Of a stretch of 64,000 nt of DNA, positions 40,909 to 56,282 are shown in pieces. Made by a program: the position numbers and the translations under genes. Every line of letters begins with the position of its first letter. Position 1 is the stretch's first letter. Source of the stretch: Nonomuraea corallina (lineage in GTDB: Bacteria; Actinomycetota; Actinomycetes; Streptosporangiales; Streptosporangiaceae). The notes below the pieces were generated by a model that saw only the letters and a list, made by a program, of their open reading frames with translations, was not told the DNA's origin and made no database searches. Location of the stretch: assembly GCF_027620315.1 (NCBI RefSeq), contig NZ_JAPNNL010000013.1, positions 1 through 64,000 of the forward strand, read 5' to 3'.

Positions 40909-42222
40909 GTGACGCGATCGATCAACAGACGTGCCCTGCTCGGCACGGGCATGCTCGCCGGGGTGGCCGCCTGCACGCCCGCCGCCTCCCCGGCCCCCTC
41001 CCCGGCCAGTTCCCCCACCGGCGCGCCCGCCTTCGACGCGAGTGACTGGGAGTCGGTGCGCGCGCAGTTCACCCTCGATCCGGCGTACGGGCAGTTCGCC
41101 GCGTTCGTGCTGGCCCCCGCGCCCGCCCCGGTGCGCGCGGCGATCGAGCGGCACCGCGCCGGCCTGGACGCCGACCCGCACTACCTGCCCTCCGGCCGCG
41201 CCACCCCCGACGACTCCGTGCTGGAGGCCGCGGCGCGCTACATCGGCGCCGACGCCCGCGAGATCGCACTCACCGACAGCACCACCATGGGCCTGGGCCT
41301 GCTCTACTCCGGCCTGCGGCTCACCAAGGGCCAGGACGTGCTCACCACCGAGCACGACTTCCTGGCCACCCACGAGGGGGTGCGGCTGCTCGCCGACCGC
41401 ACCGGCGCGAAGGTGCGCAGGGTCAGGCTGTACGACGAACCGGCCAAGGCGTCGGCCGACCGGATCGTCGAGACGATCAAGGATGGCCTGGGGCCGCGGA
41501 CCCGCGTGGTGGCGGTGACATGGGTGCACTCCAGCACCGGCGTGCGGTTACCGATCAGGGCCATCGCCGACATGCTGGCCGAGGCCAACCGGGACCGCGA
41601 CGAGGACGACCGGGCGCTGCTGTGCGTCGACGGGGTGCACGGGTTCGGCGCGATCGCCGACGGGATGGACGACCTGGGCTGCGACTTCATGGCCAGCGGC
41701 ACCCACAAGTGGCTGTTCGGGCCGCGCGGCACCGGGATCCTGTGGGGCCGGGCCTGGGAGGCGCTCACGCCGGTCATCCCGGGCTTCGGGCGGGCGTCGT
41801 TCGTGGCCTGGCAGCGCGGGGCGGGGCCGGGGGCGACCACCGCCGAGCTGGCCACGCCGGGCGGCTACAAGGCGTTCGAGCACCGGTGGGCGATGACGCA
41901 GGCGTTCAACTTCCAGACGGCGATCGGCAAGGACCGCGTCCAGCAGCGCACGCAGGAGCTGGCCACCCGGCTCAAGGCCGGCCTGGGCGAACTCCCCCAC
42001 GTCCGGCTGGCCACCCCGGACTCCCCCGAGCTGTCGGCGGGGCTGGTGTGCTGCTCGATCGACGGCATGGACCCGGCCGAGGCGGTGGCCCGCCTGCACG
42101 AGCGCAAGGTGATCGCCTCGACCACCCCGTACGTGCCGCCGCTGCTCCGCTTCGGCACCAGCATCGTCACCACCCCCGAGCAGGTCGACCAGGCCGTCGA
42201 GGCGGTGAAAGGGCTGACATGA
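40909..42222 (+). CDS. Tat-exported lipoprotein with class V aminotransferase fold
   Basis: The 437-residue protein begins MTRSINRRALLGTGMLAGVAAC. This gives a twin-arginine motif followed by the lipobox AGVAAC at Cys22, then a Pro/Ser/Ala-rich spacer. The remainder is a complete fold-type I PLP enzyme of aminotransferase class V: TDSTTMGLGLLYSGL, CVDGVHGFGA with the PLP-ring Asp, and the internal aldimine SGTHKWLFGPRGTG. Relatives include isopenicillin N epimerase, cysteine desulfurases and EgtE-like lyases. Tat export would fit a cofactor loaded before transport. GTG at 40909 has GGAAGGAG 2-3 nt upstream. Substrate is unknown. Confidence 0.82.
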   Translation: MTRSINRRALLGTGMLAGVAACTPAASPAPSPASSPTGAPAFDASDWESVRAQFTLDPAYGQFAAFVLAPAPAPVRAAIERHRAGLDADPHYLPSGRATPDDSVLEAAARYIGADAREIALTDSTTMGLGLLYSGLRLTKGQDVLTTEHDFLATHEGVRLLADRTGAKVRRVRLYDEPAKASADRIVETIKDGLGPRTRVVAVTWVHSSTGVRLPIRAIADMLAEANRDRDEDDRALLCVDGVHGFGAIADGMDDLGCDFMASGTHKWLFGPRGTGILWGRAWEALTPVIPGFGRASFVAWQRGAGPGATTAELATPGGYKAFEHRWAMTQAFNFQTAIGKDRVQQRTQELATRLKAGLGELPHVRLATPDSPELSAGLVCCSIDGMDPAEAVARLHERKVIASTTPYVPPLLRFGTSIVTTPEQVDQAVEAVKGLT

Positions 42223-42330: not shown

Positions 42331-42726
42331 TCAGGGGGTCTGCGACGGAGGGGGCGGCTGCTGCTGCGCGCCCCAGTCCCAGAGCGCTTGGAGGACCGGG
42401 CCGAGGCGCCGCCCCTGCGGCGTGAGCCGGTAGTGCACCCGGGGCGGCCAACCGGACCGGCGGCGGCGATCGAGCACCCCCGTTTCCGTCAGGTGCGCCA
42501 GCCGGTCGGACAGGACCTTGTCCGACAGTGCTGGCAGGGCCCGGCTGAGCTCGGTGAAGGTGTGGTCGCCTTTCAGGAACTCGCGGATCACCAGAGTCGT
42601 CCATCGGCCGTGCAGGACCGCGAGAGTGATCTCCACCGGGCAGGAGGAAGTGGGTTCGGCGGCATGTGCCCGCGGGTCGTCCGGCAGACCCGGCAGAACC
42701 GGGTGTCCAACCGTTTGGTGAGTCAC
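42331..42726 (-). CDS. HxlR-family winged helix regulator
   Basis: The 131-residue protein has the typical HxlR start CPVEITLAVLHGRWTTLVIREFL, with the conserved Cys and GRW. It continues with TFTELSRALPALSDKVLSDRL and the wing RVHYRLTPQGR. The C-terminus is Gln/Pro-rich. Members often sense electrophiles or oxidants through the conserved Cys. GTG at 42726 has AGGAGG 7 nt upstream; the open frame beyond it runs into the divergent gene's leader. It faces the NTF2-like gene across 61 bp and probably controls it. Confidence 0.92.
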   Translation of the reverse strand: MTHQTVGHPVLPGLPDDPRAHAAEPTSSCPVEITLAVLHGRWTTLVIREFLKGDHTFTELSRALPALSDKVLSDRLAHLTETGVLDRRRRSGWPPRVHYRLTPQGRRLGPVLQALWDWGAQQQPPPPSQTP

Positions 42727-42787
42727 GAAGGCGCCTCCTAGCGTTGCCACGTCCGGTTGATTGTCTCCGATGGAAGGACGGGTACCG

Positions 42788-43186
42788 ATGACACGGCAGC
42801 TCGCCGAACGTCCCGAGGACGTGGCCCCGGTGTTCGCCGAACGGTTCAACAGCGGCGATCCGGAGGCGGTGGCGGAGGTCTACGAGAGCGGGGCGGTGTT
42901 CGTCGCCGAGCCCGGCTCGCCGCTCACCGGGCAGGAGGCCCACGCCGCCAACGGCCGGTTCATGGAGCTCGGGGTGCCGATCACGGTTCACCCGCGGCAC
43001 GTCTACACCACGGGTGACCTGGCCCTGCTGATCGTCGATTGGGCCATCGACGGCACCGGCCGCGACGGCCGGCCGGTGCACCTGGAGGGCACCGCCACCG
43101 ACATCGCCCGGCGCGGGCAGGACGGGCGGTGGCGGTATGTCGTCGACAACCCTTTCGGCGTGCGCCGGGAAGGCCCACGGCCGTGA
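42788..43186 (+). CDS. NTF2/SnoaL-like fold protein
   Basis: The 132-residue product has the pattern of a DUF4440/SnoaL-like cone fold: an N-terminal helix (PEDVAPVFAERFNSGDPEAVAEVY), EPGSPLTGQEA, and late strands ALLIVDWAID and HLEGTATDIARR with RWRYVVDNPF. Small proteins of this fold include isomerases, dehydratases and stress proteins; no catalytic dyad can be asserted. ATG at 42788 has GGAAGGA about 9 nt upstream. It is divergent from the HxlR regulator, so it is a likely stress-responsive target. Confidence 0.8.
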   Translation: MTRQLAERPEDVAPVFAERFNSGDPEAVAEVYESGAVFVAEPGSPLTGQEAHAANGRFMELGVPITVHPRHVYTTGDLALLIVDWAIDGTGRDGRPVHLEGTATDIARRGQDGRWRYVVDNPFGVRREGPRP

Positions 43187-44144: not shown

Positions 44145-44408
44145 CTAGAGATGCTTGTACACCTCGTCGAGCCCGATCCCCTTCGCGATCATCAGCACCT
44201 GCACGTGGTAGAGGAGCTGCGAGATCTCTTCGGCGGCCCGGTCGTTGGACTCGTGCTCGGCGGCCATCCAGCTCTCGGCGGCCTCCTCGACGACCTTCTT
44301 GCCGATGGCATGGACGCCGGCGTCGAGCGCGGCCACGGTACCCGACCCCGCGGGCCGGGTCTGCGCCTTCTCTGACAGCTCGGCGAACAGCTCTTCGAAG
44401 GTCTTCAT
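44145..44408 (-). CDS. hisE: Phosphoribosyl-ATP pyrophosphohydrolase
   Basis: The 87-residue all-alpha MazG-like protein starts [15 protein letters not shown] and has the metal-binding helix [15 protein letters not shown] and [18 protein letters not shown]. It removes pyrophosphate from phosphoribosyl-ATP, the second step of histidine synthesis. It is encoded apart from hisI, as in other actinobacteria. ATG at 44408 has GAGAGAG 4 nt upstream. TAGGCT about 35 bp further upstream could be a -10. hisG follows directly. Confidence 0.95.
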
Positions 44409-44549
44409 GATCTCTCTCGTCGTTCGGCAGGAGTGCTCTACAAGCCTAGTCTGCGCCGGGCACCGGACTCACCGAGGACCGCCGTGTTCCCCGGGCGCGT
44501 CGCCCTCCTTCCCTCCCGGGTGCGGGCCGCTGATGCGGGCCGCTGGTGC

Positions 44550-44582
44550 GGGCGCGACGCGCCACTGTTCTGCGTCGCGCCC
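44550..44582. terminator. Hairpin terminator of the SDR gene
   Basis: GGGCGCGACGC and GCGTCGCGCCC form a perfect 11-bp stem with an 11-nt loop, 28 bp past the stop of the minus-strand SDR gene at 44610. A short direct repeat GCGGGCCGCTG lies beside it (about 44523-44545). Confidence 0.75.
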
Positions 44583-44609
44583 TGTCCGCGGGCACCCCTC
44601 AGCCGGCCG

Positions 44610-45377
44610 TCACCAGGGAACCGGGCCCTCCACGCTGAAGAACCCAGCGGTCGGCCCGGCGGAACCGAGGGTGGCCAGCCGCACCACGATCGTGGCGCCC
44701 TGCGCGGGGGTGAGGAGCCCGCGGTGGTCGTTGATGTCCGTGGCGACGTAGCCGGGAGCGGCGGCATTGACCAGGATGCCGTCCTTGCGCAGTTCGTTGG
44801 CGTACTGCACGGTCAGGGCGTTCAGGGCCGTCTTGGAGGGCGCGTACGCGGCTGACTGCGGCAGCGCCGTCAGCGGGCCTTGCGGGTCGCTGGTGACGGC
44901 CAGCGACGCGACCCCGCTGCTGAGGTTGACGATGCGGGGCTCCGGCGACCGTCTCAGCAACGGGAGCATGGCGTTGGTCACCGCGATCACGCCGAAGACG
45001 TTCGTCTCGAACACCGCCCGGACCATGTCCAGGTCGACGCCGCTGGGGATCTGATCGACGGCGTCCTCGGGCGCGACCCGGCCCGAACCGGTGATGGCGG
45101 CATTGTTGACCAGCACGTCAAGGTGGCCGAAGCGCTCCCCGATCCAACGCGCGGCGTCCTCGGCGGTGGCCGGGTCGGTGACGTCCAGGGTGACCGCGTG
45201 CGCGTCGCCGCCCCCCGCGCGCACCGCCGCCGCGGCCTCCTCTCCGAGCGCCGGGTCCCTGGCGGCCATCAGGACCGTCATGCCCAGCTCGGCCAGGCGC
45301 TCCGCGGTCGCCCGCCCGATCCCCTTGTTGGCCCCGGTGATCAGCGCGACCCTCTGGCGCGCGGTGTGTTCGTCCAT
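44610..45377 (-). CDS. Short-chain dehydrogenase/reductase under ECF41 control
   Basis: The 255-residue classical SDR has the cofactor loop TGANKGIGRATAERL, the NNAA element (DVLVNNAAITG), a catalytic Ser in IVNLSSGVAS, and YAPSKTALNAL with the Tyr/Lys pair. Oxidoreductase activity with NAD(P) is expected; the substrate is unknown. ATG at 45377 has CAGGAG 8 nt upstream. A promoter with the ECF41 hexamers stands about 40 bp before it, back-to-back with the one driving the epimerase-sigma operon, so the gene belongs to the same regulon. Confidence 0.9.
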   Translation of the reverse strand: MDEHTARQRVALITGANKGIGRATAERLAELGMTVLMAARDPALGEEAAAAVRAGGGDAHAVTLDVTDPATAEDAARWIGERFGHLDVLVNNAAITGSGRVAPEDAVDQIPSGVDLDMVRAVFETNVFGVIAVTNAMLPLLRRSPEPRIVNLSSGVASLAVTSDPQGPLTALPQSAAYAPSKTALNALTVQYANELRKDGILVNAAAPGYVATDINDHRGLLTPAQGATIVVRLATLGSAGPTAGFFSVEGPVPW

Positions 45378-45417
45378 GATCAAGGCTCCTGTCTCAGTGG
45401 CGCTGTGTCCCCCCCGG

Positions 45418-45445
45418 GACGAGACAGGCCGGCCGTCCTGTGACA
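45418..45445 (-). promoter_or_regulatory. Predicted ECF41 promoter for the SDR gene
   Basis: On the minus strand TGTCACA (45445-45439), then 17 bp, then CGTC (45421-45418). This is the arrangement described for ECF41 sigma factors, and it points to the gene starting at 45377. Confidence 0.7.
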
Positions 45446-45468
45446 TGGCCGTCGTCGCCCCGTACGCA

Positions 45469-45496
45469 TGTCACAGAACACCTGGGCCGTCTCGTC
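45469..45496 (+). promoter_or_regulatory. Predicted ECF41 promoter for the epimerase-sigma operon
   Basis: TGTCACA (45469-45475), then 17 bp, then CGTC (45493-45496). It is identical in spacing to the divergent site and lies 45 bp before the ATG at 45541, so the sigma factor is probably autoregulated. Confidence 0.75.
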
Positions 45497-45540
45497 CCGG
45501 GAACGTGGAACTGGTCACTGATGTCGGGAAGGTGATGGTC

Positions 45541-46452
45541 ATGCGGGTGTTCGTGGCGGGTGGCGCCGGGGTGCTGGGACGGCGGCTGGTAGCGCGGCTG
45601 GTGGCGCGGGGCCATCAGGTGACGGCGACGACGACGAGCCCGGGCAAAGTGGGCGTCCTGGAGAGCCTGGGCTCCGAGGCGGTCGTGATGGACGGGCTGG
45701 ACGCGGAGGCGGTCGGCGAGGCGGTGGCCCGGGCCCGCCCGGACGCGATCGTGCACCAGATGACGGCCATCAGCGGCAAGCCGGACATCAGGCATTTCGA
45801 CCGTTGGTTCGCCACCACCAACCGGCTGCGCACCGAGGGGACGGACCATCTGCTTGCCGCCGCCGAGGCGACCGGCGTCCCCCACGTCGCGGCCCAGAGT
45901 TACGCCTCGTGGAACGGCATCCGCGAGGGCGGATGGGTCAAGACCGAGGAGGACCCGCTGGACCCGACCAGCACCGGCCAGGGCGCCGAGGCGATCCGCC
46001 ACCTGGAGCGGGCTGTCGTCGCGGCCGGGGGCGCGGTGCTGCGCTACGGCGCCTTCTACGGGCCGGGCGCCACCGACGCCCAGGTCGAACTGGTGCGCAA
46101 ACGGCAGTATCCCGTCATCGGTGACGGCCGCGGCCACAGCTCGTGGGTGCACCTCGACGACGCGGCCGAGGCCACCGTCCTGGCCGTGGAGCAGCGGGCG
46201 CGGGGCGTGTTCAACATCGTCGACGACGAACCGGCCCCGGCGCGCGAGTGGCTGCCTCACCTGGCCGCGTGCGCGGGCGCCAAGCCGCCGATGCGGATCC
46301 CGGTCTGGCTGGCCAGGCCACTGGCCGGGAGGACCGCAGTGGCGATGATGACGGAAGGCCGCGGCTTCTCCAACGCCAAGGCCAAGCGGGAACTCGGCTG
46401 GCAGCCGCGCCACCCGTCCTGGCGTCAGGGGTTCGAGGAGGAGCTGAGGTGA
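45541..46452 (+). CDS. NAD-dependent epimerase/dehydratase, ECF41 partner (COE-type)
   Basis: The 303-residue extended-SDR protein begins MRVFVAGGAGVLGRRLVARL and has GHSSWVHLDDAAEATVLAV. The YxxxK pair is not evident; SYASWNG occupies the expected area. ECF41 sigma genes are typically linked to a carboxymuconolactone decarboxylase, oxidoreductase or epimerase, and this is the epimerase variant. ATG at 45541 has GGGAAGG 8 nt upstream; GTG/ATG codons at 45532 and 45535 fall inside that site. Its stop overlaps the sigma gene start (GTGA). Confidence 0.88.
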   Translation: MRVFVAGGAGVLGRRLVARLVARGHQVTATTTSPGKVGVLESLGSEAVVMDGLDAEAVGEAVARARPDAIVHQMTAISGKPDIRHFDRWFATTNRLRTEGTDHLLAAAEATGVPHVAAQSYASWNGIREGGWVKTEEDPLDPTSTGQGAEAIRHLERAVVAAGGAVLRYGAFYGPGATDAQVELVRKRQYPVIGDGRGHSSWVHLDDAAEATVLAVEQRARGVFNIVDDEPAPAREWLPHLAACAGAKPPMRIPVWLARPLAGRTAVAMMTEGRGFSNAKAKRELGWQPRHPSWRQGFEEELR

Positions 46453-47384
46453 GCAGGACGGAGGAGTTCCAGGAGTTGCGGCCGCTGCTGTTCTCGATCG
46501 CCTACCGCATCCTGGGCAGCGCGAGCGAGGCCGAGGACGCGGTCCAGGAGGCCTGGCTGCGTTACGACGCCTATCCGGGACGGCCCGCGTCGGCCAAGGC
46601 GTTCCTGTCGGCCACGGTGTCCAGGATCGCGATCGACGTGCTGCGCTCGGCCCGGGTCCGGCGCGAGGAGTACACGGGGCGGTGGTTCCCCGAACCTCTG
46701 CTCGCCGACCCGTACGAGGACCCGGAGCGGTCGGCGGAGCTGGCCGACTCGGTGTCGACGGCGGCGCTGCTGCTGCTGGAGCGGCTCAGCCCGCTGGAGC
46801 GCGCGGTCTTCGTGCTGCGGGAGGTGTTCGGGTTCGGCTTCGGCGAGGTCGCCGCGGCGGTGGGGCGTTCGGAGGCGGCCTGCCGTCAGCTCGCCGTGCG
46901 TGCGCGCCGCCACATGGCCGAGGGACAGGTCCGGTTCACGGCCGACCGCCGGGAGCGGGAGGAGCTGGCGGGACGGTTCTTCCACGCCTTCCGTGAGGGG
47001 GACGTCGACGGGCTGCGCGAGCTGCTCGCCGCCGACGTGGCGATGGTCGGCGACAGCGGCGGCCGGGCCCCGCTGTGGGGCCGGGGCGTCTTCGGCGCCG
47101 CCGAGGTGGCCCGTACCCTGGCCGCCATCGGCGGGCCGTTCGCCCGCATCGGCGGCGTGGTGGAGCCGCGCGAGATCAACGGCCAGCCGGGCGCGATCTT
47201 CCGCGACCGTGACCGCAAGATCGTCAACACCTTGACGTTCGACATCCTCGACGGGCGGATCCAGACGATCCGCGCCGTGATCAACCCCGACAAACTACGC
47301 CACCTGGGCCCGGTGGCGGACGCCTGGGCCGTCATCCGCGAGGCCACCCGAACCCGCCACCCCACCCCTCCCGCCGTGCCCTGA
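46449..47384 (+). CDS. ECF41-group RNA polymerase sigma factor (SigJ-like)
   Basis: The 311-residue protein has sigma region 2 (LLFSIAYRILGSASEAEDAVQEAWLRY), a linker with the group signature WFPEPLL, and region 4 (LSPLERAVFVLREVFGFGFGEVAAAVGRSEAACRQL), quoted by landmarks. A C-terminal SnoaL/NTF2-like domain of about 120 residues ends in the ECF41 motif NPDKLRHL. In this group the C-terminal domain, not an anti-sigma factor, modulates activity. No anti-sigma gene is present here, consistent with that. GTG at 46449 overlaps the epimerase stop; GAGGAGGAG precedes it. Confidence 0.93.
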   Translation: MSRTEEFQELRPLLFSIAYRILGSASEAEDAVQEAWLRYDAYPGRPASAKAFLSATVSRIAIDVLRSARVRREEYTGRWFPEPLLADPYEDPERSAELADSVSTAALLLLERLSPLERAVFVLREVFGFGFGEVAAAVGRSEAACRQLAVRARRHMAEGQVRFTADRREREELAGRFFHAFREGDVDGLRELLAADVAMVGDSGGRAPLWGRGVFGAAEVARTLAAIGGPFARIGGVVEPREINGQPGAIFRDRDRKIVNTLTFDILDGRIQTIRAVINPDKLRHLGPVADAWAVIREATRTRHPTPPAVP

Positions 47385-47528
47385 ACCCGCGCCAGGCACC
47401 GCGCGAGCCCTCAGCGGGTGGCTCGGTGGGGCGGGTGCGGAAAAGAAACAGGCGGGACCCGCCGGGTGGCTCGGTGAGGCGGGAGGTGGATGACGGGGGT
47501 CGGCACCGGCTGGTGGCTACATACGCGA

Positions 47529-47566
47529 GCACCCCCGCGCCGCTCGTCAGAACGGCACGGGGGTGC
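47529..47566. terminator. Hairpin terminator of the DEAD-box gene
   Basis: GCACCCCCG-c-GCCG pairs with CGGC-a-CGGGGGTGC around a 10-nt loop. A second stem, CCCGCCTG (47586-47593) with CAGGCGGG (47617-47624), lies closer to the stop at 47637. The 252-bp gap also contains a near-perfect direct repeat GGGTGGCTCGGTG (47414 and 47463 areas) and no gene. Confidence 0.7.
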
Positions 47567-47636
47567 CCGGTGATGGCCTGTCAGGCCCGCCTGTCACGCG
47601 GATCGCACCGTACGCGCAGGCGGGATCGACCTCGGG

Positions 47637-49547
47637 TCAGCGGTCGAAGCGGCGGCCGGAGCCGCCACGGCGGAAGCCGCCGCCCCTGGCGCCGCGGTCG
47701 TCGGAGCGGAAGCCGCCCGGGCGGTAGCCGTCGCGGGGACGGTCGTCGGGACGGCTGACGGACCGGTCGCGGTCGCCCCCGGCGGGACGGCCACGGTCGG
47801 CGGAGTAGCGGTTGGCCCGGTCGTCGGAGCGGAACCCGCCGGCGCGCGTGCCGCGGTCGTCACGGTAGCCACCCCGGTCGAGGTTGGGCCGGTCGTCGCG
47901 GTAGCCGCCGCGCGGGCGGTCACCGTCGCGGAACGGGCGGTCGTCGGAACGGTAACCGCGCTGCTCAGAGCGGAACCCGTTGTCGCGGCGGTCCTCGCCG
48001 AAGGTGCGAGGCTCCCGGTCGCCGCCGTGGCGGCGGTCGTCGCGGAACGGCCGGTCGCCGCCCTCGTACCGACGCCTGCCCGAGAACCCGTCCTCGTGGC
48101 GGCGCGGACCGGAGAAGCCCTCCTCGCGGCGCGGGCCCGAGAAACCGTCCTCGCGGCGCGGGCCCGAGAAGCCCTCCTCGCGGCGCGGGCCCGAGAAGCC
48201 CTCGTCGTGACGCCTGGGGCGGCGCTCGCCGTCGTAGTCGCGGCGCGGGCGGCGGGTGCGGGCGCCGTGGTTGTCACGGCCGTCGCGGCGCGGGCGCAGG
48301 GGCTTGCGCACGTCCGGCTCCCAGACGGGGATCGACTCGCCGCTCGGCGTGCGGGCGCCGGTGACCTCGGCCACCCGCGGGTGACCCGGGGTCGCCTTGA
48401 GGCGGAACGGGTGGATGCCGGCCCGCCGGGTCAGCGACTCGGTGGAGCGGCGCTCGTTCGGCAGGACCAGCGTGACGACGGTGCCCTTCTCGCCGGCGCG
48501 GGCGGTGCGGCCGCCCCGGTGCAGGTAGCTCTTGCTGTCCTGGGGCGGGTCGACGTGCAGCACCAGGCTGATGTTGTCGACGTGGATGCCGCGGGCGGCG
48601 ACGTCGGTGCAGACGAGCACGTTGACGGAGCCTTCGCGGAACTCGGCCAGGATGCGGGTGCGCTGGTTCTGGCGCTTGCCGCCGTGCAGGCCGCCCGCCT
48701 TGACGCCGACCCTGGCCAGCTGCTTGCAGAGGCGGTCGACGCCGTGCTGGGTGCGCACGAAGATGATCGTGCGGCCCTCGCGGTTGGCGATCTCGGCGGT
48801 GATGTCGAACTTGTCGTCCCGGGTCACCTGCAGCACGTGGTGCTCCATGGTGTCGACGGGCGAGGTGGCGGGGGCGACGGAGTGGCTGACCGGGTCCTTG
48901 AGGAAGCGCTGGACGAGCTTGTCCACGTCGCCGTCGAGGGTGGCCGAGAACAGCAGGCGCTGCCCGCCGGGCGGGGTCTGCGCGAGCAGTTCGGTCACGA
49001 CCGGGAAGAACCCGAGGTCGCACATATGGTCGGCCTCGTCCAGGACGCTGACCTCGATGTCCTCCAGCGAGCACTCGCCCTGGCGGATCAGGTCGCCGAG
49101 CCGGCCGGGGGTGGCGATGACGATGTCGACGCCGCGGCGCAGCGCCTCGATCTGCTTGCCCATGGACATGCCGCCGACGACGACCTTCATGCGCAGGCCG
49201 AGGCCGCGGCCGAGGGGTTCGAGGGCGTCGTGCACCTGGAGGGCGAGCTCACGGGTGGGGACGAGGACCATCGCGCGGGGGCGGCCGGGGGCCGGCCTGA
49301 CGCCGGCGATGCGGGCCATCATGGGGAGCCCGAAGGCGAGGGTCTTGCCCGAGCCGGTCTGGCCGCGGCCGAGCACGTCGGCGCCGGCGAGCACGTCCGG
49401 GATGGCCGCGCTCTGGATGGGGAACGGGGAGTCGATGCCCTGCCTGGCCAGACCGTTCACGAGCGGCTTGGGCAGACCGAGCAACTCGAACTCGGAGGGC
49501 CCCTGCTCGGGGGTCGTCTCGGGCAGGACAGCGTCAAGCATGGTCAC
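47637..49547 (-). CDS. DEAD-box RNA helicase with repetitive Arg/Gly-rich tail
   Basis: The 636-residue protein has a Q-motif (FELLGLPKPLVNGLARQGIDSPFPIQ region), GQTGSGKT, PTRELA, TPGRLGD, VLDEADHM, LFSATL, ARGIHVDN and HRGGRTARAG. These are all helicase motifs, with Gly and Ala replacing the usual Ile and Gly in the last. From about residue 415 the protein is an unstructured tail rich in Arg, Asp, Gly and Ser, with tandem GFSGPRREE units and RSDDR/YRDDR motifs. Such helicases remodel RNA in cold shock and ribosome assembly, and the tail should bind RNA. GTG at 49547 has AAAGG 10 nt upstream; ATG at 49541 is an alternative. Confidence 0.92.
   Translation of the reverse strand: MTMLDAVLPETTPEQGPSEFELLGLPKPLVNGLARQGIDSPFPIQSAAIPDVLAGADVLGRGQTGSGKTLAFGLPMMARIAGVRPAPGRPRAMVLVPTRELALQVHDALEPLGRGLGLRMKVVVGGMSMGKQIEALRRGVDIVIATPGRLGDLIRQGECSLEDIEVSVLDEADHMCDLGFFPVVTELLAQTPPGGQRLLFSATLDGDVDKLVQRFLKDPVSHSVAPATSPVDTMEHHVLQVTRDDKFDITAEIANREGRTIIFVRTQHGVDRLCKQLARVGVKAGGLHGGKRQNQRTRILAEFREGSVNVLVCTDVAARGIHVDNISLVLHVDPPQDSKSYLHRGGRTARAGEKGTVVTLVLPNERRSTESLTRRAGIHPFRLKATPGHPRVAEVTGARTPSGESIPVWEPDVRKPLRPRRDGRDNHGARTRRPRRDYDGERRPRRHDEGFSGPRREEGFSGPRREDGFSGPRREEGFSGPRRHEDGFSGRRRYEGGDRPFRDDRRHGGDREPRTFGEDRRDNGFRSEQRGYRSDDRPFRDGDRPRGGYRDDRPNLDRGGYRDDRGTRAGGFRSDDRANRYSADRGRPAGGDRDRSVSRPDDRPRDGYRPGGFRSDDRGARGGGFRRGGSGRRFDR
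48080..48213. repeat. 27-bp tandem repeats in the helicase tail
   Basis: About five in-frame units encode GFSGPRREE or close variants (EEGFSGPRR, EDGFSGPRR, EDGFSGRRR). The DNA copies are nearly identical over three central units, so copy number probably varies between strains. Confidence 0.85.
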
Positions 49548-55503: not shown

Positions 55504-56282
55504 CCTCCGGTCTCCTTGCTTCTGTCGCGGATGCTTCTATCGCGGATGCTTCTATCGCGGATGCTTCTCTCGCGGACGCTCTGGTCACGACCGCTTTCAT
55601 CTGCTCTATGTGAGGCCCCCAGCGTCTGGGGGCTGACGTGCGTGGTGCAGACCCCGTCGCCGTGGGCGATCGTGGCCAGGCGCTGCACGGGGGTGCCGAG
55701 CAGCTGCGCGAACGCCTCCGTCTCGGCCTCGCACAGCTGCGGGAACTCCGCGGCCGCGTGGGCCACCGGGCAGTGGTGCTGGCAGAGCTGGTCGCCGCCC
55801 GACTTGGCCTTGCTGGCCGAGGCGGCGTAGCCCTCCGCGGACAGGGCCTGCGCCAGCACCTGGACGCGCTGGCCCGCCGGCACCGTCCGCATGACCGGCT
55901 CCAGCCGCCGCAGCAGGCCGTCGACCTGGGTGCGGGCGAAGTCGGCCACCGCCTCCTCGCCCAGGCGCTCGGCCAGGAAGCGCAGCGCGCTCCCGGCCAG
56001 GTCGTCGTAGGCGTGCTCGAAGGCGTTGCGCCCCGCGTCGGTGATGGCGAACAGCTTGGCCGGTCGCCCGCGCCCCCGCTGGCCGCGCGGCCGCACCGTA
56101 CGGGGCTCGATCATCCCGTCGGCGAGCAGCGCGTCAAGGTGGCGCCGGACGGCCGCGGGCGTCAGCCCGAGCCGCTCGCCCAGCGCCGCCGCGGCGATGG
56201 GCCCGTGCTCCAGGATGAGCCGGGCGACGCGCGCACGGGTGCTGCGCTCGCTGCCGGGCTCTATCAAGGGCACGTTTTTCAC
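55500..56282 (-). CDS. sufR: Fe-S cluster-sensing regulator SufR with repeat-extended C-terminus
   Basis: The 260-residue protein has an N-terminal winged HTH ([24 protein letters not shown]) and a sensor domain with the cluster Cys set: [21 protein letters not shown] and GDGVCTTHV. It represses the suf operon when holding a [4Fe-4S] cluster. Residues after about 225 are an extra tail ([16 protein letters not shown] and similar) coded by a 15-bp tandem repeat. I chose GTG at 56282, because VKNV matches the common SufR start; no Shine-Dalgarno is visible, and the operator overlaps the start, so a leaderless mRNA is possible. Confidence 0.92.
55517..55576. repeat. 15-bp tandem repeat at the end of sufR
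   Basis: Four units of TGCTTCT(A/G/C)TCGCGGA run at 55517-55531, 55532-55546, 55547-55561 and 55562-55576, followed by a degenerate fifth. They are in frame and encode SIRDR-type pentapeptides at the sufR C-terminus. Confidence 0.95.

Follow-up and report, generated by a model that had tools for sequence, protein, structure and literature searches.

Predicted back-to-back ECF41-type promoters between a classical SDR gene and an epimerase-like gene-sigma factor operon in Nonomuraea corallina

ECF41 sigma factors occur widely. The closest described systems are those of the founding ECF41 study (Wecke 2012, PMC3426412), in which the ECF41 promoter was defined as TGTCACA, a spacer of 16 ± 1 and CGTC. 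The >COE> >ECF> operons made up 29% of the ECF41 loci, and the divergent <ECF< >COE> arrangement was present at 55 loci, with the motif located before 36 ECF and 41 COE genes, often on both sides of the same locus (Table 4 of Wecke 2012); back-to-back ECF41 promoters as such are already known from the latter loci. The authors concluded that the regulon of an ECF41 factor is one gene or one operon; they found neither an inducer nor a phenotype, and their list of COE oxidoreductases contains no classical short-chain dehydrogenases/reductases (SDRs). The role of the SnoaL-like domain is known from other ECF41 factors (PMC3426412, PMC8999054). In S. meliloti, where RpoE9 has one target, a transcription start was mapped 9 nt past the ECF41 motif (PMC3616915). 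Single-target behaviour is not universal, because a review (PMC8999054) cites an Azospirillum ECF41 factor that has flagellar effects.

A 64,000-nucleotide stretch of N. corallina DNA (the window) was analyzed, and the features of the locus are listed in Table 1. An earlier note had described TGTCACA-N17-CGTC on both strands of a 163-bp gap, with equal spacers and the TGTCACA boxes 23 bp apart. The coordinates bore this out exactly, and the gap between the SDR start codon (ATG 45377) and the epimerase-like start codon (ATG 45541) had the length claimed. The CGTC box was located 40 nt from the ATG on the SDR side, where the extended -10 element reads CTGTCTCGTC, and 44 nt from the ATG on the operon side. 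Compared with the systems of Wecke 2012 (B. licheniformis Ecf41/ydfG, R. sphaeroides Ecf41/RSP_0606 and S. meliloti RpoE9/SMb20029), the locus has the same fused C-terminal extension, W(L/F)PEP linker, TGTCACA/CGTC promoter and epimerase-like gene upstream in the same operon, and likewise has no anti-sigma gene nearby. Both sites fit the ECF41 promoter definition, with a spacer of 17 each against the published 16 ± 1. In contrast to those systems, a second promoter here is predicted to drive a classical SDR (adh_short), a family outside the COE domain list, and the 3' half of the spacer, GGCTGTCT, is conserved here, whereas the B. licheniformis and R. sphaeroides promoters show no such conservation. 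As at the <ECF< >COE> loci, the promoters stand back to back between divergent genes; in the window, however, a COE-sigma operon already forms one arm, and the second arm adds a further enzyme.

Table 1. Features of the locus, in window coordinates.
Feature	Position	Strand	Description
SDR gene	44610..45377	-	Classical short-chain dehydrogenase/reductase, 255 aa, divergent arm
SDR-side predicted ECF41-type promoter	45418-45445	-	TGTCACAGGACGGCCGGCCTGTCTCGTC; TGTCACA 45445-45439, N17, CGTC 45421-45418
Stretch common to both promoters, between the -35 boxes	45446-45468		23 bp
Operon-side predicted ECF41-type promoter	45469-45496	+	TGTCACAGAACACCTGGGCCGTCTCGTC; TGTCACA 45469-45475, N17, CGTC 45493-45496
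Epimerase-like gene	45541..46452	+	NAD-dependent epimerase/reductase-like protein, 303 aa
Sigma gene	46449..47384	+	ECF41/SigJ-like; GTG start overlaps the upstream epimerase-like stop by 4 bp

The sigma gene is, as judged from its sequence, of the ECF41/SigJ-like type with a SnoaL-type C-terminal extension. The protein matched Sigma70_r2 (2.4e-12) and Sigma70_r4_2 (1.2e-11) in Pfam and, over nearly its full length, TIGR02957 (343 bits, cut-off 323) and SigJ PRK09636 (310 bits, cut-off 271). The structure of M. tuberculosis SigJ (5xe7) was matched at 8.7e-49. The two proteins belong to one subfamily; the match covers residues 3-282, with the SnoaL-like region and the NPDK segment among them, at moderate identity. 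The extension continues for approximately 150 residues past sigma4, compared with some 100 as the mark of an ECF41 factor, the alignment running through the SigJ extension, and scored 20 bits against SnoaL_2, under the 27-bit cut-off. The linker between sigma2 and sigma4 contains WFPEP, which is the ECF41 WLPEP signature with one substitution, at the aligned place. The gene context is also that of ECF41, with a COE-type (epimerase-like) gene directly upstream, and no anti-sigma candidate was found among the genes adjacent to the sigma gene. Another regulator/SnoaL-fold pair was observed 2 kb from the locus at 42331-43186, consisting of an HxlR-type regulator (-) and a SnoaL-like/DUF4440 protein (+) with overlapping divergent 5' ends. 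Positions 40909-42222 encode a PLP enzyme that resembles PvdN and belongs to the aminotransferase class V family. It begins with a twin-arginine-like sequence, MTRSINRRALLGTG, and scored 370 bits to the PvdN model, under the cut-off of 650.

The SDR matched Pfam adh_short at 9.6e-44 and, in translation, showed the cofactor motif TGANKGIG and the catalytic motif YAPSK; an RBS-like GGAG is present ahead of its ATG. Its nearest solved relatives are the plant menthone/isopiperitenone and salutaridine reductases. The epimerase-like protein matched Pfam Epimerase at 1.8e-18 and contains the cofactor motif GGAGVLG. Upon alignment to solved relatives, the YAAAK segment of dTDP-glucose 4,6-dehydratase (8shh) corresponded to GQGAE. 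Because the canonical YxxxK is not conserved and the catalytic Tyr/Lys pair is absent at the aligned place, the predicted partner protein has an epimerase fold, and we use 'epimerase' as the name of a fold. An identity as the AvaA7 denitrifying (diazo) reductase, the nearest NCBIfam model, was not adopted, as the score of 244 bits was below the cut-off of 400.

The pattern TGTCACA-N15..19-CGTC had two matches in the window, both of them the sites in the gap, compared with 0.13 expected by chance, and two matches occurred in none of 100 dinucleotide-shuffled windows. Bare TGTCACA showed no enrichment in the window, with 3 occurrences against an expected 3.57. Taken together with the shuffles of SDR upstream regions described below, the window shuffles ruled out a chance origin of the paired sites. 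The identity of the two copies exceeds the motif; the same 13 bases, GTCTCGTCCCGGG, are found on both sides and run beyond the published ECF41 promoter boxes. Across the host genome, the looser TGTCACA-N15..19-CGTC pattern gave 15 matches, compared with 6 for a reversed control pattern. The genus comparison covered 55 genomes, 42 with a close relative of the sigma factor and 13 without. A longer motif, TGTCACAG-N8/9-GGCTGTCTCGTC, was present at 68 sites in the relatives, with 83-92% conservation from the C to the C just before TCGTC; the search prescribed TGTCAC and TCGTC, and the remaining positions were free for the cis sites. A family scan of 201 genomes gave approximately 68 matches to TGTCACA-N12/13-GTCTCGTC and none to the reversed pattern.

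The earlier note had proposed that the SDR gene is a second arm of the regulon, to be checked in related genomes, and this proposal is credible, as conservation of the site extends over the genus and into other families. The site was located at most 150 bp upstream in 17 of 29 SDR orthologues (at least 71% identity), and none of 300 shuffled sets came near that number. Eleven of the 17 site-bearing SDRs diverge from the sigma locus; the epimerase-like gene is present in five of these cases and absent from six. The remaining copies differ in their placement: G035 has a tandem SDR-epimerase-sigma arrangement with the SDR site kept, G002 and G008 have the SDR near the sigma locus in other orientations, and G003, G004 and G017 have it on another contig or far away. 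In G017, the SDR and its matching promoter lie on the same contig as the sigma gene but approximately 6 Mb from it, and the sigma gene there stands alone. In the SDR tree, five copies outside the divergent layout (G017, G002, G008, G004 and G003) are interleaved with the linked ones, and well-supported branches force at least four label changes; therefore, the SDR has moved more than once, with the site retained. Outside the genus, the site was found before the same SDR in Kribbella (L218; tandem with separate promoters) and before an SDR-sigma operon in Nocardia amamiensis (L220) and Saccharothrix (L231).

The SDR is not always in the regulon, because seven orthologues have another site and five of the 29 lack an exact match. 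The seven (L149, L158, L162, L163, L164, L169 and L171) carry [CT]GTCACA-N16-[CG]ATC instead of the CGTC promoter, a pattern that occurred at most once per shuffled set in 300 sets, and two of the seven have an ECF41-like gene, 41% identical, in divergent orientation to the SDR. One of the five shows a near match, TGTCAGG...CTGTCTCGTC, in the SDR-sigma layout of G025.

We then considered the small three-gene unit suggested in the earlier note. The SDR and the epimerase-sigma operon form such a unit in the host genome, but not as a fixed cassette, as the partners vary among relatives. Six relatives have the SDR and the sigma gene facing away from each other without an intervening epimerase-like gene, a layout shared with the <ECF< >COE> loci; four others have the epimerase-sigma operon on its own; and three have a gene for a different NAD(P)H-binding protein in the divergent position. 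Because SDR-only, epimerase-sigma-only and swapped-divergent-gene loci all occur, the unit is, on this comparative evidence, best described as a sigma factor with interchangeable oxidoreductase partners. The accompanying idea of a two-enzyme reaction was not supported, since many loci hold just one of the two enzymes, and these single-enzyme loci argue against an obligate two-step pathway through the SDR and the epimerase-like protein.

Other readings of the paired sites were weighed against these data. The 13-base inverted repeat (CCCGGGACGAGAC ... GTCTCGTCCCGGG) has perfect arms in the window, as would suit the dyad of a dimeric regulator or a structural element whose likeness to ECF41 promoters is secondary. 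We regard this as highly improbable, as in relatives the TGTCAC boxes lie anywhere from 8 bp to over 200 bp apart, and because of this variation the sites look like two separate promoters and not one dyad. Moreover, the -35 and -10 elements agree with mapped ECF41 promoters, and each half-site also occurs singly before genes, among them SDR and epimerase-like genes that are unlinked. Its orientation at these genes is constant, and its distance to the start codon is comparable: 27-58 nt overall and at the SDRs, and 33-46 nt in most cases at the epimerase-like orthologues (at least 73% identity). Where the -35 boxes are 8-23 bp apart, joint binding of polymerase may be hindered in some species. 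It is also conceivable, at slightly better though still very poor odds, that only the rightward promoter works, the leftward copy being a relic of local inversion or a product of chance and the SDR being driven by another promoter. The leftward site is usually absent where there is no divergent SDR (L055, L058, L059, L061 and L064; of these, L055, L058, L059 and L064 have the operon with no divergent gene and lack the site), as expected if the operon needs none, and some SDR orthologues are without a site. However, neither inversion nor chance can explain a site that accompanies 17 of 29 SDR orthologues, unlinked ones included, and no sigma-70-like promoter was found in 44300-47700, although this is a weak test in a GC-rich actinomycete. 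At three loci with another divergent gene, for an NAD(P)H-binding protein (L065, L068 and L069), the leftward site is present.

A more serious alternative, which we nevertheless consider unlikely, is that the sites are ECF41 promoters of which one or both are fired mainly by another paralogue, such as the sigma factor encoded on host contig C112 (75% identical to the locus sigma), so that the gap would be a node of a cross-talking network. There are seven ECF41-like sigma genes in the host, and 15-22 per genome in the six relatives tested (G001, G005, G017, G022, G047 and G048). In G005, which has 22 such genes and no close relative of the locus sigma, the site is kept before an 87%-identical epimerase-like gene. 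Against this, TGTCAC-N13/14-GTCTCGTC occurs at only two places in the host genome, both in the gap and adjoining the locus sigma, and at the DoxX-like gene of the C112 sigma the site has diverged to TGTCACC...CCTCTCGTC. Furthermore, sites rise above background only in genomes with the sigma type of this locus: 74 extended sites were found in the 42 genomes with it (reversed control, 35) and 6 in the 13 genomes without it (control, 11). The excess was significant (Mann-Whitney p = 0.0009; controls, p = 0.91), as a correlation among related genomes that are not independent. We have high confidence, based on sequence and conservation, that the promoters and the second arm are genuine, and we consider it very probable that the gap holds two independent divergent ECF41-dependent promoters through which the local sigma drives its own operon and the SDR.

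Several further sites and genes were observed. In L189 (G002) and L190 (G022), the epimerase-like gene is preceded on the same strand by a second ECF41-like sigma gene, 41-43% identical, and in G002 it is flanked by two ECF41 genes. A second back-to-back pair, TGTCACA-N16-CGTC, is present on host contig C112 at 56027-56091 (L023:6028-6092). It separates a cytochrome b (QcrB-like) gene from a 147-aa gene that is divergent from it and has no Pfam family. The two sites of this pair are conserved in all eight Nonomuraea genomes with the divergent layout (host included), and the 147-aa side has the motif in 11 further genomes. This pair may be used by another ECF41 paralogue, because its -10 element is without the GTCT extension. 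Extended sites were also located approximately 10-50 nt before the start codons of DoxX-like genes (L076, L083, L086, L087 and L129), carboxymuconolactone decarboxylase genes (L136, L138 and L140), uncharacterized membrane protein genes (L123, L134 and L137) and another SDR (L131 and L132). The occurrence of such sites at other genes suggests a wider ECF41 regulon in the genus.

In the mechanism that we propose, the sigma factor would be freed for RNA polymerase when a small-molecule signal acts on its SnoaL-like C-terminal domain. The holoenzyme would transcribe rightwards the epimerase-like gene and the sigma gene, giving positive autoregulation, and leftwards the classical SDR gene, so that the operon and the SDR would be turned on together by the signal. 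The substrates of the two NAD(P)-dependent enzymes are probably the inducing compound or related carbonyl compounds; action in series is not needed. Published ECF41 regulons mostly comprise one neighbouring gene or operon, whereas two arms are predicted here, and one of them, the SDR, lies away from the sigma locus in some genomes. Three features are new relative to Wecke 2012: an arm with a classical SDR, the persistence of this arm in trans, and the extension of the -10 element. More tentatively, and with somewhat less than even expectation, we suggest that this ECF41 subgroup in Nonomuraea and related actinomycetes controls a multi-gene regulon scattered over the genome, with interchangeable Rossmann-fold enzymes as its output; paralogues with the common TGTCACA -35 would be separated by their -10 elements, namely GGCTGTCTCGTC here, CGTC without extension at the cytochrome b pair and, for some SDRs, perhaps [CG]ATC.

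A conserved second target that is able to leave the locus together with its promoter would make the ECF41 sigma the center of a small regulon and not a local switch, and the SDR provides a second enzyme from which the signal of an ECF41 sigma may be guessed. An SDR target in trans is a possible explanation for some 'orphan' ECF41 genes, as in G017. Finally, cross-talk among 7 to 22 paralogues that share one -35 box may be avoided through the longer -10 region, an idea that can be tested.
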